This document shows, piece after piece, positions 981 to 59,788 of a stretch of DNA of 64,000 nucleotides; the stretch's first letter is position 1; each line of letters begins with the position of its first letter. The notes beneath the pieces were generated by a model that searched no databases, had not been told where the DNA came from, and saw nothing but the letters and a program-made list of their open reading frames with translations. Made by a program: the position numbers and the translations under genes. Origin of the DNA: Pezizomycotina sp. ARF18 (Eukaryota; Ascomycota); NCBI GenBank assembly GCA_002224055.1, contig AZLU01000177.1, positions 24,833 to 88,832 on the forward strand, written 5' to 3'.

Positions 981-2754
981 ATGGACGACCACCCTCCACC
1001 CCCGAGTTCAAATACTACTGCGAACTCCTAACAAACATCCAACAAGTCTCCATTTCCATCTCCTCCCCCTCCCAACATCATCAACCTTCCTGCACCCTCC
1101 AAACGCGTCCTCCTCCTCTCATACCCACCATCACATCCGATACCTCTATACCTCCCATCCCGCGTATCCCCCCAATCCCCTCCTTCCATCACTCTCATAC
1201 CGCCTCCCCGCAATCACACAGCAACATCCCGACCGCAGCGATAACGTCCCGTGGTCCGCGTCTTATTTCTCCCGCAATGACCCAGCGATAAATTGTAAAT
1301 CCTGCTTGAGCGCGATAATACCGTCGGGTAAGGTGACGACGTGGAAGGACTTACCCAGCGAGAACTGGGCGGATTTAATGGACTTTTGGCACTGCCATAA
1401 CCGCAGGAAGAAGGAAGCGAAGAAAAGGGAAAAGGGAAGAGGTACGGGAATGTACTCGCGAAGGAAGGGGAGGGGTTTGTGGAGATGATGTTCGTGTTGG
1501 TGGATGGAGGGATATAGTTGAGGGGAGCTTTGAGGTTTGTGATATTCCCTTTCTTCTTCGTTCTCTTCGTTTATTTTTTTTTTGTCGTGGGTGTCGGTCT
1601 AGAGTACATCCATCTCTGGAGTTATCTAGACCTACCGCTCCCAATCTCTTGCCTTTTTTCCGATGTATATACACAAACGGACAAAAACTCCGTCATACTG
1701 CCCTCACACGGTTTTAGGTTTTATGCTTGATATCACAACCCTCGTGAGAAGAAAAACAACGGGCACATAAGAAAGTGATGGAATCCTTCTCCCTCGGAGT
1801 AAACCTCTTCAAACCCCCAGATTCTATGACTGATACAAATGCCCAATATCAACCACGAGCTACAAATCACATCCTCTCATGCTTTAATGTAGAGGACTAG
1901 AGCACGGTTCCTTCCCCTCAAGGGAAGTTATCAGGGCTCGAGGATGTCCACTACATTGCATGAGAGTTAGCGATTTTCTGCTTAATGTTCCGGAAAAACA
2001 ATTCACGCCTCCGGAAATAAGTACTTGAGTATTTTCATGGGGGTATAGGTAAGCTGGATACAGATAAAATTACTTAAATATATTTACTGCGAGGATTATT
2101 ATCTTCAAGTTAGAGTTTGCTTTGTACATAGAATATTCCTATTAATGATAAATATCACACAAAATATGAGAACACCAGCTGACACATCAGCCCTCCAAAA
2201 CCATAGAAATCTTCAAACGATAATGACAACCCCACCGACCTCACACCAATCCACTGTACCTCCTGCGCCTCCCCCTCGGCCTCTCCGACGCCAAAGCAAA
2301 CGGTTACCGCCTAACGAAATACTCCCTATCCCTCTCGACATCTCCAACATATACCACATCCCAGTGGATAACAGCACACCTCCTCTTCTCATCGACACGC
2401 AAGCGCAGCGTAAATTCATCGTACAATCCGAACCTTCCTCCTCCTCCTCCTCCCCTACTACTACGAAAAAATTCCAAATATGGTATTCAATCCACACACA
2501 ATAATAACGACGCACGCGCACCGTAAGCCCGTCGAGGCTGTTAAAGTCTACTACAAGGACGAAGGAAAAAGTAGTGGTGGTGTGGTGCGGGTAGTTCATT
2601 ACAGGATCCGGAGGTTGTGTATTTACCGGAAAAGGTATACGACGAAGTGTGGAAGGAGCTGGAGAGCGGGAATAGGGAGTTACCGGATGATGTTAAGCTT
2701 ATGGGGGAGTGGAGGGGCAGTTGGTTGAGGAGGTTTGGGAGGGGTGATGTATAA
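981..2754 (+). CDS. UBE3D/Ipa1-like E2-binding protein (HECT_2 family), frames broken
   Basis: Likely the fungal relative of UBE3D (yeast Ipa1), a family that binds ubiquitin-conjugating enzymes; the yeast member also affects mRNA cleavage and polyadenylation. The diagnostic stretch, near 1290-1420, is a CKSC cysteine pair followed by WKDLPSENWADLMDFWHCHN, the family hallmark. The C-terminal part also matches the family: a WVFNP-type segment and VEAVKVYY (about 2470-2560), then an acidic/tryptophan-rich end VYDEVWKELESGNRELP...GEWRGSWL before the TAA at 2752-2754. The ATG at 981 is followed by an open proline-rich start that shifts frame near 1003. The AT-rich stretch 1520-2140 has many stops and may be an intron, a diverged middle or sequence error. 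Convergent with NTAQ1 downstream. The product is well supported by the two conserved ends; the exon structure is not resolved. Confidence 0.78.
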
Positions 2755-42097: not shown

Positions 42098-45066
42098 TCA
42101 GTTTTCCCTCGCGGTTGCAGCAAGCTGCGATGCATCCGCATTCGATCCGGCGGAAAGCGGCGTCGAAACGCCCGGAGAAGACGACGCCGTCCCGCCCAGC
42201 GCACTACTACCAAGACCGCTCGCTAAGCTCTGAGAGCCCAACCTGTCGACGCCCTCCTTGACTTCCCTGACCCCAGACATAAACGCCGAACTCAACCCCG
42301 CCGCATCGAACCGGCCCGCCAGCGCTGACGTTTGCAAGTTCGCAAGACCCAACGGTCCCATACCGCTCTGCGAACCAATACCCAAGTTCGGTCCAATGTT
42401 CGTAGAACCCAAATTGAGCGCCTGCATGAGAGGCGACGACTCGGCGAGGTTATCGTGCGCGGACCGGTGGGCGTGGAATAGCTCGACGAGCGCGGCTTGC
42501 TCTCCCTTCCGTATTCCCTTGAGGTCTAGTATCTTGCGGAAGTTCGTGTCCGATTTGTCGGCGATGTGGATGAGGTACGCTTGCACGAGACCTTCGCGGG
42601 GGATGAGCGGACTTGTATTACTTTGAGGATGGTGTCGACTTTTGCGACGGATCTGCTGACGTGTTTTATATATCTGTTCGGGAAAAAAAGGTTTAGTGGT
42701 TAGCGTGAGTTCGTGGGAGAGCGAAGTAGTTAAGGGCTGCTTACCCTGCAGGTGCTGCAGTTCCCGCTTCAGCCTTCAATGTTAAGAGATCTTCGAGACC
42801 TTTCTTGATAACGTATAGATCAGCAGCATCTGCATTCGTCAAAATAGTGTTAGTAATCTACTTGATAGAGTATTCTGAGGAATGATATAGCTTACTTGCT
42901 CAGCTCCGATATCAGAGATGGGTTTACACGAGACCAGATTCCCCAGCAGGGAACTGGCAACATACTCCACCAACCGATCGCAGAAAAGCCCGCTTATACT
43001 GCTCCTTCACTATGATTTGCATTATTTCGCCGGACTTTTCTTTCAGCACCCTCATAAGCTCGCCCACGTACGTGCTCTGGTCCCCAACGTTCCAGCTTAC
43101 TCCAAGGCGTATTTTCATCTCTCGCCAGCTCGGTTCTACTTCCACCTCAACCTTCCTGACGAGGGCACGAATTGCGGCATTCGCCACTTTCATGAAGTTG
43201 TCCTGCTGGTTTCGAAGCTACATTTGTCCTTGTATTCCTGATCTACTTTTGTCGTGAATTTTTCTTCGATCTGTGCGCAGAGCGTGTAGCTGTAATCTGC
43301 CGTGTTCAGTACCGTTATAATATTCTCCGTCGGTGGGATAGGCGCACTCGGACGATCGGGAATAAAAGATAACAGCACCTGCTCAGCGTATTCATCGAGG
43401 TGCTTTGCGAATATCCGAGAAAGGTCGTATAATTTCGAACCGGTAGCCAGCATTGCGCATTGAGCAAAGCTGACCTTGTAGAATTGGAAGAGTTCAATTG
43501 ACGAGCCGACAACGGCTTGCGGCGAGAATTCCTCGTCGGCAGGCCTTATGGGCTGTGACTTGTAAGATGGTATCAAGGCTAAGAGAGCCTTGTCTTGAGA
43601 ATCCACCCAAAGGCTGAGGTATGGCTCGAAAGCCTCCGAGATAGCCTTGCCGAAATTAGGCGACCTCTCGACACTGGAGCTGTTGGTGTCAAGCGACATA
43701 CGGCTCTACATGTTTCGTTAGCCTCTGAAAAGTCATTAGTTTCAAAAGTAAGGCTATTTGTCGCTTACCGTGCTGCTGAACCTTTTGTCGAGCCAATGCT
43801 CGAGTTCTAAAGTTTCTTGGAGACATGTGAGAAGTAGGTTGACGTCAAGTGATTTGCCATTCTCCTTCCTCATTGACCGTGCCAGTATTCCCTTGAAATC
43901 ATCCTTCGTCCCGTCACAGAATGAACGAGCAAGCACCTCGTTCACCTTCCACACAGCCGGAAAGATAAAGGCGTGTTCCTCGTCGTAAGTTTTTAGTATC
44001 CGCTTCAACCATGCATACCGCCGTGATATGTTGTCCAGCGAACCAGCCTAATCAAGAAACGCCGTAAAATATTAGCCATTTCCCACCCCTAAATATTCAG
44101 CTCGTTTCAAACATTCAGAACGCACCCACCTCATCGTTACCACGGAACACTTGTCTGTACTCCCGCAATTGCGTATTGCAAAACCAGTTTATTATCCTTG
44201 TCCTCGCCGTATCGCCTAGCGCATCCATGACCTGACAAGCTTCCGCCAACATGCCTTTCTTCGCGGATACCTCCCCCTTGGCGAATACCACCTCAAAATC
44301 CTCGCATACTTGCTCGAGCAGCTGACTCTGAAGGTTCGCAACGTTCCGGCTGAGGGTAGCTATTTGGTCGATCGAACGGTACGATTTGAAATGGGCCATG
44401 AGCTGTATTACTGCCTCCAGGAGATGCGCGCATTCGCGGTATTGTCGGGACTTGCATTGGGCATTGAGCTGTTCGTACGCGGTAGCTGTTTTCCAACATG
44501 TTAGCTCAGTCTTGAAAATTCATGGTATACCACCATACGTAGATCTGAAAAATCCGGCAAGAAAAAAAGGAGAAGGGCGAAACGCACTCAGCATCTGCAA
44601 CCGTTTCAGAGCAGTCATGGAGAGCGTCAGGTTCCGTTTCGTGGCGTCCAAGCGTTTAATATCCGCGGTCATCGACGTGATCGCCTCTTCCGTTGCCATA
44701 GCCCTCCCGCGGACATTTTCGATCTTATCAAACAGCTCCTGAAGATCGGCCTTGGCCGTCGCCATCCGCTCGATATTCGTCTTATCCGTTACCGCTTGCG
44801 TGGCCACAAGGGCCTCGACTTCTTGTCGAGCGTCTTAACATGGCTATCGAGTGCGCTAGCTGTCGTAGAGACCGACGATAGTGTAGCGGGGTGGGAAAAT
44901 ATCTGGTTGAGGTGTATCACCGGGTCATAGTTGGCTAAATGGCCGTTAGCATCCCCTTTGCAAAAGATCCGTTTCAACCACGTTGCGAAAGAAGGGAGTG
45001 AGGGAAAAGAAAAGCCAGAAAAATCGCACCTGAATCCAATGGATCTTCAGAGGCGACTCCATTCAT
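42098..45066 (-). CDS. VPS53: Vacuolar protein sorting protein VPS53 (GARP/EARP subunit)
   Basis: VPS53 is a subunit of the GARP tether that captures endosome-derived vesicles at the trans-Golgi. Start chosen at 45066 (MNGVASEDPLDS) because orthologues begin this way; an upstream in-frame ATG at 45213 is less likely. Exon 1 ends at 45030; after a 95-nt intron (branch GCTAAC, acceptor TTTAG) the frame gives ANYDPVIHLNQIFSHPATL. Conserved blocks follow in order: LSMTALKRLQML, AYEQLNAQCKSRQYRECAHL, MAHFKSYRSIDQIATLSRN, NTQLREYRQVFRGNDE, SLDNISRRYAWLKRILKTYD, EAFEPYLSLWVDSQDK and YLIHIADKSDTNFRKILDLK. About six introns. The C-terminal tail is Ser/Gly/Ala-rich. Single-base losses break the frame near 44822 and 43208 and several times between 43200 and 42800. 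The protein can be followed end to end, so I regard it as intact. Confidence 0.94.
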
Positions 45067-45223: not shown

Positions 45224-45716
45224 TCGACGCGGAAACGCTAAGTTTGAAGCAAGGAGCAACTCTCAGCGATGATGAAGCCCATGAAAATCGCAAGATTGGA
45301 AGGATCACGATTCACGACTATTCAAATACACGCGTGGCTAAGCAAGGATTCTGGTGAGGATGATTCCAATTTCAACAATATTCCTTACTAGATTCTAGAC
45401 CTATCTAACAGGCTTTGCTAATGGACTATACTTTTGATGTTAGAGTTTTCTTTCTACAACGATAATATTAGGATGTTACAGTTGCTTGAGATATTGAGCA
45501 AATAAAATATATCATGAATACATTAGGGAATAACTTTTATGCAGAGCAGACGCCAGAAATAACAATCCCAGGGATATATCGTACAAAGAGTCCCAAAAAA
45601 GAAATCAAAGCTTCCAGTGCCGCGCCGTAGAAAAAAAGAAAGCTCAAGCAAAACAACTTGAAAATCTCAACGCAAATCGATCACGGTAGCATTACGATTG
45701 TTGCTGTTGCTGCCTT
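45224..45716. other. Spacer between YTH1 and VPS53
   Basis: About 490 bp, AT-rich in the middle, presumably the YTH1 3' end region plus the VPS53 promoter. If the YTH1 frame ends at 45667 instead of 45717, it starts slightly later. Confidence 0.5.
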
Positions 45717-46564
45717 TTATCCTCCAATTACGCCTTCCACCATCGCCTCCACCCCTCCTACCATGGAAAAACTCCCTGCGACACCACCACGCGGTGGCCC
45801 ACCCTCTCCTTTCATTCCCTCGCCGTCGCCCCAACGACGTTCCTCCCTTTCCGTCTTCACAGTCGGCGGTGCTAATGATGTTGGCCACTTTGGGTGCGCT
45901 CCTTCCTTGCATTCCTGCCGCCCTTCCGGACAAAACCCAGCAAGGTAAAATCTGCACATCGTCTTCCGCACGTGTTTCTTCGAGCATGTCGGTCCTAGAG
46001 GACAGAAGCCCTTTTCGTAATGCGGGCAAGGTGGTATCTTGATTCAGGTCGATGTGAAGGTACAAGCATTCCTCGCCGTTCGAGCAGTAACCATTTCGTA
46101 TGAAAAAGTTGCATTCAGGCATCTTGCGGAGATTGTACTCGTGGAGGAATTCACAAGCTTCCCCTTTCTTGCATAGCGATCTCAGCCAGTGTTTGCAGAC
46201 AAGACTATTATCAGAGATGGAAAAAATGATGTTAGCATGACTCTTTCAAAAAAATGGCGCGCGTCGCATAAATGCAACCATATCCTCTCACAGTGGAAGA
46301 TGAAGCATTGATGGTAGTAGAGAAAAAAAAATTATACCTACTTGCTGAAGCCAGAGTTTGTAGTGTGCTTGTCGGGACACTCATTGCCCATCGGACAGTG
46401 TCCCTGAAGGAAGAACCGGCATACTTCGCGATTTGGATCCAACCCGAACCTGTACTCCTTTTTTAGAAACGGCATGAAAGAGAAGTTGTTGTACTTATTG
46501 GCCGGCAGTGATTTCAAGACTGCGTCTGCGAAGGTGTCGGTTGGGCTGTTTGAGCGGACGCCAT
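45717..46564 (-). CDS. YTH1: mRNA 3'-end-processing protein YTH1 (CPSF30, five CCCH fingers)
   Basis: YTH1 is the zinc-finger subunit of the cleavage and polyadenylation factor that recognises the poly(A) signal. Start at 46564 ([15 protein letters not shown]), then a frame change into [20 protein letters not shown] and [12 protein letters not shown]. Five CCCH fingers are visible: [19 protein letters not shown]; then, after a 137-nt intron (46205-46341), [58 protein letters not shown] and [21 protein letters not shown]. Finger 5 has one more residue between Cys2 and Cys3 than the usual spacing. Frame changes near 46040, where a lost C from a CC run fits. The C-terminus is Gly-rich in more than one frame; the stop is at 45717 or 45667. 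Tandem with VPS53 on the same strand. Confidence 0.94.
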
Positions 46565-50869: not shown

Positions 50870-52228
50870 ATGAGCCCGCAAGAAGCGCCGAAAATGTTCT
50901 TCAATGCGGTTTACTACCCGAACTACCGCATCTACAGGAACCAACCGCCCTCATCCCTTCCGCTGAACTTATTACCCATGTGTTTTACGCTTTCGCAAAT
51001 ATTCAGGAGAACGGTGAAGTTGAGGTACGTCAGATATGCGAGATATGGAAGTTATAAGCTGCCAACCACCACAAAACTCCAAATTATATATATAAGTGCT
51101 ATTATGCGTTTAAGTCTGACACTACTTCCCTTTTTTCAAAAACATCAGCTCTCGGATACATGGCAGACACGCAGATGCAGGTTGACGGCTGCCAGGGCTG
51201 TCTCGGAAGCTTCGGCATGATGAAAGCGCAATGGCCTCACCTGAAGCTTCTTCTCAGCATTGGCGGTGGCGCTGCGACTCAACGCTTTATAGACGTTTCT
51301 GCACATCCCCAGAAAAGGGACAGGCTCGCTTTTACCTGCAGGGTTCTGGTTGAGAAGTACAGGTTGGACGGAATTGACGGTATTGCTATTTTGGCTGTCT
51401 TGCTTTCATTTTTTTTTTTCTTAGTTCCGGTAAACCGAAAATATAATATACTGGACATTCTACTTACTTGAAAATGCCGTTAATAATTCTATAATATCTT
51501 TTTTCTTCTCTTTCCTTTTCTTTTTTCTTATATCTTCTTTTTCTACAGTTGATTGGGAGGGCCCGTCCAATGACGAGCAAAAGGCCAACTTCACGGCCCT
51601 CATCGCCCAGCTCCGACAGCACCTGCCGATGAACGAATTCCTCCTATCCGCAGCTTTTGCCGCCGGCGAGTGGGCCCTCCGTTGGATTGACCTGCCTAGG
51701 GTGCAGCAGCTTCTGGACATCGTTAATCTCATGGCCTACGACTTCTGCGGACCCTGGAATAACCAGGCGGGCTACCACTCGCAGCTCTACTCGCCGAAGG
51801 ACCGCCCGACGACGCGGCCAAGCTCTCCGGGGATGCTGCGGTGCAGTACTGCCTGAGCAAGGGCGTCCCTCCCGGCAAGATCCTCCTCGGTATACCAGCT
51901 TACGGGAGGTCCTTCCTCGGCGCTTACGGACCCGGTCAAACCTCGCACGGCGGCGCTGGGGAAGACGGCACTTTCGAGTACAAGGATCTACCGAGGCCGG
52001 AAACCAAGAGTTCGTGGACACGGAGTGCGTCTCCGCGTTCTCGACGGGTGAAGAGGTCGGGTTCATCTCGTACGATAACCCTACTACTGTGGCGAAGAAG
52101 GGAGAGTACGCGAGGAACAATAAGCTCGGTGGTGTATTCTTCTGGAGCGGCACCGGCGATGTTCCTCCGGAGATAGAAGCCTTGTTTTGGCTAGCTACAG
52201 GGCCATGCATCCTGACTATCTCAATTAA
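50870..52228 (+). CDS. Glycoside hydrolase family 18 chitinase, no signal peptide
   Basis: GH18 chitinases cleave beta-1,4-N-acetylglucosamine polymers by substrate-assisted catalysis. ATG 50870 gives MSPQEAPKMFFNAVYYPNYR, with no hydrophobic leader, then LITHVFYAFANIQENGEVE up to donor GTACGT (51025). Exon 2 starts at 51149 with LSDTW and carries the substrate-binding LKLLLSIGGG. The second intron (51380-51548) splits the catalytic motif: joined, it reads DGIDVDWE, the Glu being the acid. Exon 3 has NLMAYDFCGPWNNQAGYHS, GIPAYGRSF, GFISYDNP and GGVFFWSGTGD, and ends RSLVLASYRAMHPDYLN at TAA 52226-52228. About 350 residues, catalytic domain only, no chitin-binding module. This resembles the fungal subgroup A type used in autolysis and wall turnover, often exported without a classical signal. 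Frame breaks near 50975, 51161, 51810, 52010 and 52165. Confidence 0.93.
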
Positions 52229-57540: not shown

Positions 57541-59788
57541 ATGTCGTTTTCGTCGCCGCCAACAACCAATATTCATCCCCTCCGAGCTTGAATACAAATC
57601 CTCAAGGACAAGGACAAGGTCAAACTCCGGAGAACGTGTTTGACCAGTATGGTACGCGATAATCTCTTCCCTCTTGCATTAACTTTCCTTTCTTTCTTTT
57701 TTTCTTGAATATCTACCTTGTTCCCATGCATTAGAGATATGCATGTTGTCTCTTTTACTTTTTTTTTTTTTTTTAATAATCAAATATATCGGAGAACCCC
57801 CCTCATATCGTTTCCGATGTCATTGAATATATATAACAGCTGTCAACCGTGCTTCTGTACAAGTATATTTAAGAACCATATCATCATCACCATCTTCCTT
57901 CGCTAACCCTGGGGCTTCTATTATGGTTCATGGTGGTGAATTAAAAGACAACTACAATACCATCGATACTAGTTCGCCGGTCACTTCTGGAAAGCACTCG
58001 GGCTTGAACTTCTTCAAGAATTTCTCATCCTCAAAGACTACTAAAGGTAAGTGATTACTACATGTCTTGCTTTTTAGGCCCACCTGATCGATTAAAATGA
58101 TATAATCAAAAATTATCATTTTAAAAACGACTCAAAACGGCCACAGCGGGGATTAAATAAAACAATATGTGCAAGAGCTCTTTACGTTCTTGTCGTTAAG
58201 AGGGGGCCATATGGAAAGAGCACTTCAAATATATAAAGCAGGCGACATGGCGCAAGTAGGATTAAAGAAAAAAGAATTTTCGAGGGCAAATCATAGTCAC
58301 AAAAAAGATTTTAAATAATACGTAGTATCCTCTGTTCGCTAACCAATTCCGAATGATATTATTCTTAGACGGACAACCCGCGAAGCGCAGAGGGCCTAAG
58401 CCAGACGCAAGCCGGCACAGACACGAAGACAGGTATTTTAAATATTTTCTTCCATTCCCGAAATTTTCCCTAGCATCAGTTACCAATTCGCTTAAACCTT
58501 TCCTTAATCAAATTATTGTCCCATGTTTTCTTTTTTTTATTCTTTATTCTTTGTTTTACCCCAATCCCACGTCCACAGCCTATATTTGGACCCCGTCATC
58601 CGCGGAGCCTCTTTTAGACATCCATTTAAGGCTGAACAACACGCTAATACTTACCATAGGAACTTAACAGGTAGAGCTTTAACCTTTCTTTAAATACCTT
58701 CGCATTAAACCCTCACTTCTTACTCCACATTCTTCACATCGTCCTCGTCTTGTACTCCTTGTACAACTTCATCGTATCCTCGGCGTCGACCTTCGCCGTA
58801 CACCTTCGCTTCCAAACCCCTACTACTCACGTACCCATCAAACCGCCCACGATTCCTAAGCTAACATTAGATCTCCTTCGTTTCTATTAGACAAGCTCAG
58901 GACCCATCGCGAAAGGAAGGAAGCATACCTCAGAACCCTTGAAACCGAAGTCATGCGTCTCCGGAAGCTTTCACCATCGTTACTAGGGAGAAGTCCAACC
59001 TCGCGGACGAGAATAGAGCTATGAAGGAACACATGCGCCTGCACGGCCTATCATGGCCTCCCATCCCGGGCCAAGAAGTTTCTGCTCTGCCACTCGCACC
59101 AGTGCCTCCTCCACCCACTAAGGACGAAGACATGAACAAGCTACTGCATGGCGACTTTGATAGTCTGGGTGTCGATTTTGTCCTGGCGTAAGTAGTCTCT
59201 AAAAATCAGGCTTACAAGACGCTATACACCATATACGATGCATTAAGCTAACTTCCGATATTTAATTAGACTTGAACGGCCATGCATGGACCATATTCAA
59301 GATCTCGTCATCACAGCCAGCAACGACCCCAACGGAACGACGATAAACGGCCACGCCTTGATGGCGTCGTGTCCTCCTGAATCGCACGTCTTAGCGAACC
59401 CTAACGAACCTTGGGGTCTTAAAACACACCATTACAACCCGCGGACCTCAACACGATGCTTAACATGTCCCAGAGCCTGAACATAGGCGGGGAATTAACT
59501 CCTATTGCGTACGTCTAAATAGCCCCTTTCGTATTGCAGAAGGAAGAATTATTAGAAAAGAACGGATACTCACAGTTTTATAATTTGATATAGTGCTTGG
59601 GGAATGATCCAAAACCACCCGCGGTTCTTCGACCTTACCCGGGACGACTTTGCGGTGCTGAAGGCTGAGCTGGTGCTAAGATTAGGTGCTACGGCTTCGG
59701 CGCCGTGATCGAAGAGTACATGGTCAAGGACGCGCTGTCCGCCGTCTTCGCCGCCAAGTTCGCACGGCAACACCAGGCGTATTACTAA
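57541..59788 (+). CDS. bZIP transcription factor with split basic region
   Basis: A fungal bZIP regulator. ATG 57541 (MSFSSPPTTNIHP) leads a Gln-rich N-terminus to donor GTACGC near 57651. A later exon ends SGLNFFKNFSSSKTTK at 58046; the next (58369-58432) carries the basic GQPAKRRGPKPD. An 11-nt exon (58660-58670) adds ELNR, and the exon from 58891 continues QAQRTHRERKEAYLRTLE, so the N-x7-R signature of the DNA-contact helix is assembled only by splicing. A short leucine zipper follows (TLETEVMRLR...NLADENRAMKEHM). The C-terminal domain is conserved among fungal homologues: FVLALERPCMDHIQDLV, GHALMASCPPESHV, ANPNEPWG, AAWGMIQNHPRFFDLTRDDF, CYGFGAVIEEYMVKDALSAV. The stop is TAA 59786-59788. 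Frame breaks near 57590, 58403, 58902, 58965, 59440 and 59680. It resembles AP-1-annotated bZIPs; its targets cannot be told from sequence. Confidence 0.9.
58660..58670 (+). other. 11-nt microexon in bZIP basic region
   Basis: Flanked by introns 58433-58659 (GTATTT...branch GCTAATAC...CATAG) and 58671-58890 (GTAGAG...TTTCTATTAG). It encodes Glu, Leu, Asn and two bases of Arg. The Asn is the invariant residue of the bZIP N-x7-R motif. Skipping it would both remove this Asn and shift the frame. Confidence 0.75.

Follow-up and report, generated by a model that had tools for sequence, protein, structure and literature searches.

A predicted 11-nt microexon in the basic region of a bZIP-like gene of Pezizomycotina sp. 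ARF18

Short exons and basic-region introns in fungal transcription factor genes

The closest described system is Xlr2 of Trichoderma virens, in which a 20-nt microexon regulated by glucose lies within the zinc-cluster DNA-binding domain (PMC11121469, accessible text). The locus reported here, found in a 64-kb stretch of Pezizomycotina sp. ARF18 DNA that was analysed whole (the window), resembles Xlr2 in that a transcription factor of a filamentous fungus has, within its DNA-binding domain and between canonical introns, an exon that is very short and whose length is not divisible by three. The two systems differ in family, size and support: Xlr2 is a Zn2Cys6 factor whose 20-nt exon is conserved in Trichoderma and whose glucose regulation has RNA-seq support (PMC11121469), whereas the present exon is 11 nt long, bZIP-like and known from sequence alone. 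In a search of the literature on microexons, Xlr2 was the sole close case among the matches listed, judged by their titles. A parallel search for 11-bp or 11-nt exons returned only papers in human genetics, as far as titles and the beginnings of abstracts indicate.

Introns that interrupt the basic region are well represented in the available portions of two fungal surveys. In Coniothyrium minitans the domain is interrupted in 15 of the 28 bZIP genes that contain introns, and in one of these 15 it is interrupted twice (PMC7409085), and in Cytospora chrysosperma the bZIP domain is interrupted in 13 of 26 bZIP genes (PMC8778692). These introns lie within the N-x7-R motif, often at Arg codons (PMC7409085, PMC8778692). 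The gene described here shares introns in the basic region with these genes, but theirs number one per gene, except for the single C. minitans gene with two, and the accessible text of these surveys names no microexon. Because introns in N-x7-R are known from several fungal bZIP genes, the place of the microexon is less striking than it first appears. A further comparison is offered by spliceosomal twin introns, in which two fungal introns likewise lie very close together (PMC5639578, accessible text); in that arrangement a splicing motif of one intron is broken by the other, whereas here 11 coding bases separate two complete introns. For the rsmA gene of Aspergillus flavus, the consulted parts of the RsmA/Fcr3 papers give two introns, 47 and 102 bp long, and we claim no orthology between it and the window gene. 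Within the portion available to us, a survey of Aspergillus nidulans transcription factors names no microexon.

A candidate microexon between two complete introns

The bZIP gene is read on the forward strand from a start ATG to a stop TAA (57541..59788), with seven predicted exons and six introns. Its exons occupy 57541-57651, 57840-58046, 58369-58432, 58660-58670, 58891-59187, 59270-59508 and 59594-59788, the start, stop and outer exons having been placed by eye. The fourth of these, GAACTTAACAG (58660..58670, +), is the candidate microexon; in the bZIP-like phase it encodes ELN plus two bases of an Arg codon (GAA CTT AAC AG). It is bordered by AG at 58658-58659, within CATAG, and by GT at 58671-58672, within GTAGAG. 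The preceding intron (58433..58659, +) is 227 nt long, runs from GTATTT to CATAG and has a branch-like GCTAAT at 58643; the following one (58671..58890, +) is 220 nt long, runs from GTAGAG to ATTAG and has a branch-like GCTAAC at 58860. The distance from the branch-like A to the intron end is 12 nt in the first and 26 nt in the second. GCTAAC recurs in two other introns of the gene (58338 and 59247), and the last two introns have only a weaker CTCAY. A microexon can be defined as an exon of about 30 nt or less with a spliceosomal intron on either side, and at the level of sequence this one agrees, with 11 nt and with GT-AG ends and branch-like sites in both introns. The positions, sizes and consensus intron ends given in the original prediction were all reproduced; its clear branch site in the first intron is present, but it credited that intron alone, although the second also has GCTAAC.

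We used shuffled sequence to ask how readily such an exon would appear by chance in the 458-nt interval separating the neighbouring exons. When at least 40 nt of intron was required on each side, the interval held three internal exon candidates of the form AG|5-25 nt|GT, with lengths of 5, 11 and 16 nt, and the single 11-nt candidate is the microexon. Across 20,000 dinucleotide shuffles of the interval, an AG|11 nt|GT exon of the form ELNR never arose, xLNR arose once and xxNR 35 times. The ELNR target derives from a putative family motif, whereas xxNR reflects the Asn-Arg pair present in six of the nine readable basic regions of the organism's own genome (L001, L002, L004, L005, L006 and L008); of the other three, two have Asn-Thr and one has Asp. 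An exon of the ELNR form occurs once in the 64-kb window when both strands are scanned, with none on the minus strand.

The product is predicted to be a fungal bZIP transcription factor. Pfam was searched with seven separate pieces rather than a whole protein, the gene being broken. One piece (58860-59021), containing THRERKEAYLRTLE, matched bZIP_1 weakly (E 0.037; 14.6 bits, under the 27.6-bit cut-off), and the six others, one of only 31 aa and two representing splice products, had no Pfam match. A PDB search with two pieces gave no match. By eye, AYLRTLETEVMRLR contains a pair of leucines seven apart, in a series broken by the next frame change. The product fits a putative bZIP factor of the RRQELNRQAQRTHRERKE type, and a text search of the literature for pieces of this motif returned no paper. 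Searches of the organism's own genome yielded no second copy or allele of the gene. The pattern KDGQPxKR had no match in that genome either, because an intron splits this stretch in the bZIP gene. Pattern scans of viral, bacterial and archaeal collections recovered no relatives; further scans of these collections matched 63 and 8 stretches, none of them confirmed as a relative.

Reading frames at the locus and across the assembly

Three-frame translation places DGQPAKRRGPKPD in one frame and KPAQTRRQ in another within the exon before the microexon (58369..58432, +; 64% GC). The exon after it (58891..59187, +) encodes QAQ, THRERKEAYLRTLETEVMRLR and AFTIVTREKSNLADENRAMKEHMRLHG in successive frames. 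The order KPAQTRRQ, ELNR, QAQ is continuous in one frame over both splices, with the 220-nt intron falling in phase 2 within the codon for the Arg that follows the key Asn, and THRERKE comes directly in the next frame. Taken as sequenced, the spliced open frame instead reads DGQPAKRRGPKPDASRHRHEDR-NLT-DKLRTHRERKEAYLRTLETEVMRLRKL, that is, HEDR-NLT-DKLRTHRERK, with eight residues rather than seven between the Asn of NLT and the Arg of THR. The bZIP-like Asn is encoded by a different AAC from that of NLT, read in the other phase. No single frame of the spliced letters contains N-x7-R/K; ELNR-QAQ and then THR are ordered over two successive frames, and the Asn-Arg spacing fits N-x7-R but is unmeasurable across the frame change. 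An acceptor at 58900 in place of 58890 would keep a single frame, but it drops QAQ and destroys the Asn-Arg spacing, and we rejected it by eye.

Three frame changes affect this part of the gene: one between the DGQP part and KPAQ in the upstream exon, one just past QAQ in the downstream exon, and one past MRLR, after which AFTIVTREK appears in another frame. Three more were noted only by eye, in the first exon, near 59,440 and near 59,690, giving about six in about 1.1 kb of exon. The claim that the microexon completes an N-x7-R DNA-contact motif is not confirmed by the letters as sequenced, in which the open frame lacks the motif and the bZIP-like reading needs a frame change on each side. 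A microexon that carries the key Asn is well supported by splice and branch-like sites, by the chance tests and by the intron position in a paralogue.

Comparable breaks are common elsewhere in the assembly. We examined HSP70 and TCP-1 genes, defining a gene place as a contig-and-strand group and a join as two pieces that are neighbours in the profile and separated by less than 45 nt. The 38 HSP70 pieces fell into seven groups, five of which contained 18 joins, and the 33 TCP-1 pieces into eight groups, six of which contained ten joins. All 28 of the 28 close joins change frame, spread over 11 of the 15 gene places, a figure that conveys how common breaks are and not what proportion of exons is affected, since the search mostly merged same-frame neighbours. 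Four of the 15 places have no close join, so errors are uneven. The HSP70 gene on contig C49 has six changes in 1.78 kb, and several HSP70 and TCP-1 genes switch frame at intervals of a few hundred bases (for example C49:53036-54818 and C70:64569-65993). Fungi need HSP70 and TCP-1. As both are nonetheless broken, assembly error is the simplest cause, and small insertion or deletion errors are probably numerous in this assembly. With frame changes throughout the assembly, the reading frame is no argument for or against the microexon, and the point that the frame is lost when the microexon is left out carries little weight.

Other genes in the window were also recovered in pieces. A GH18 chitinase-like gene (51058-52173, +; Pfam Glyco_hydro_18) is split into three pieces and changes frame near 51,800. 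A CCCH zinc-finger gene (45670-46245, -; Pfam zf-CCCH) has several fingers in two frames, with the change near 46,040, and resembles the mRNA 3'-end processing factor Yth1. Neither change leaves room for an intron. A Vps53 gene (43193-44834, -) was matched by Pfam Vps53_N in four pieces, one below the cut-off; ordinary introns could explain these, and the gene was left out of the tally of frame breaks. The longest stop-to-stop frame in the window is 229 codons, and the genome also has some longer ones, reaching 640 codons among those listed. No tRNA gene was found in the 64-kb window. In an unpolished assembly such as this, arguments about exons that proceed from the reading frame are unsafe, and other frame-based findings from the window need equal caution.

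Intron positions and competing readings of the locus

A paralogue in the same genome shares the position of one of the two introns. Among 13 loci inspected, the basic region was readable in nine (L001-L006, L008, L025 and L030) and unreadable in four (L007, L026, L027 and L028). Seven of the nine have no intron inside the motif. In L002 (contig C222, match 1501-1641, minus strand), an Atf1-like bZIP gene, a 73-nt intron splits the Arg that follows the key Asn in phase 2, matching the 220-nt intron of the window gene in both codon and phase. In L008 (contig C10), a Yap-like bZIP gene, a 122-nt intron upstream of the match falls three residues past the key Asn with a frame change beside it; a microexon suspected there resolved into this one intron plus the frame change. 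The L002 match, together with the domain introns of C. minitans and C. chrysosperma, marks the position of the 220-nt intron as recurrent and leaves the 227-nt intron as the unusual part. Most simply, the microexon would have arisen when a second intron was gained 11 nt ahead of an old intron position, an order of events that we infer. Copying of one intron into the other was considered and set aside, the best match between them being an unconvincing 18 nt at 89% (E 0.005), pyrimidine-rich and accompanied by other short matches.

The reading that we hold to be likely is of an 11-nt exon between ordinary introns of a bZIP gene, constitutively used, cut off by an extra intron and surrounded by breaks that are assembly errors. 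The breaks could instead be real, the gene being a decayed pseudogene that no longer uses its microexon. Its frame changes are somewhat denser than those of the HSP70 genes, and the HSP70 and TCP-1 places that have no close join lend this some colour; that these genes are broken too, the one on C49 with six changes in 1.78 kb, lowers it, and we consider it improbable. The splice sites, start and stop also look intact, and decay would mean losing the only copy found in the genome. We take assembly error rather than gene decay to be the most likely source of the breaks around the microexon. The exon might also be illusory, whether as a chance AG|11|GT in one 458-nt intron, as retention of the first intron or as a twin-intron arrangement, with the Asn coming from elsewhere. 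Pezizomycotina are known to have twin introns (PMC5639578, accessible text), and one of the three frames of the 227-nt intron is free of stops, that of DGQPAKRRGPKP (open frame 58326-58667). In the KPAQTRRQ phase, retention meets a stop at the third codon, and we take the stop-free frame for chance. The intron is AT-rich, at 37% GC against 64% and 54% in the exons; the shuffles seldom or never reproduced the exon; and when 58432 is joined to 58891, none of the frames of the joined letters has an Asn ahead of THRERKE. These results leave the absence of a microexon with very little probability. No inner intron interrupting a splicing motif of an outer one, as in a spliceosomal twin intron, was seen: 11 bases reading ELNR, which none of the 20,000 shuffles gave, separate two introns that are each complete.

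The original prediction further proposed that the exon could act as a splicing switch, which would amount to inclusion or skipping under different conditions that toggles DNA binding, as in Xlr2. The glucose-regulated exon of that gene is a precedent (PMC11121469, accessible text), and the two introns beside the exon exceed in length most introns of bZIP genes in Fusarium graminearum and C. minitans, according to the consulted parts of the reports on those species. Against this, both flanks have good splice sites and branch-like sites, which points to constitutive use, and skipping 11 nt, which is not a multiple of three, shifts the frame: when the exon is left out of the letters as sequenced, neither KPAQTRRQ nor DGQPAKRRGPKP continues into THRERKE in any of the three frames, so that no intact bZIP is joined. 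We therefore find the switch unsupported and regard regulated inclusion as highly doubtful. Still less credible is the broader scenario of a microexon with the DNA-contacting Asn that is conserved in related fungi, missed by annotation and gates DNA binding through regulated inclusion.

We return to the constitutive 11-nt exon. As sequenced, the full motif is impossible and the 227-nt intron is open in the as-sequenced frame, both of which count against it. Under this model, the microexon would supply Glu-Leu-Asn and part of the next Arg to the DNA-contacting basic region. The 220-nt intron would occupy the recurrent bZIP position, phase 2 in the Arg past the key Asn, and an extra intron arising 11 nt upstream would have severed the short piece. 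Inclusion would then most likely be constitutive by intron definition, with each intron providing its own donor, branch site and acceptor. We predict that this is probably a constitutively spliced fungal microexon. It is probably a new, 11-nt bZIP instance of a rare and already known kind. Gene finders would easily miss an exon of 11 nt in a bZIP basic region, leaving a protein with no apparent DNA-binding motif.
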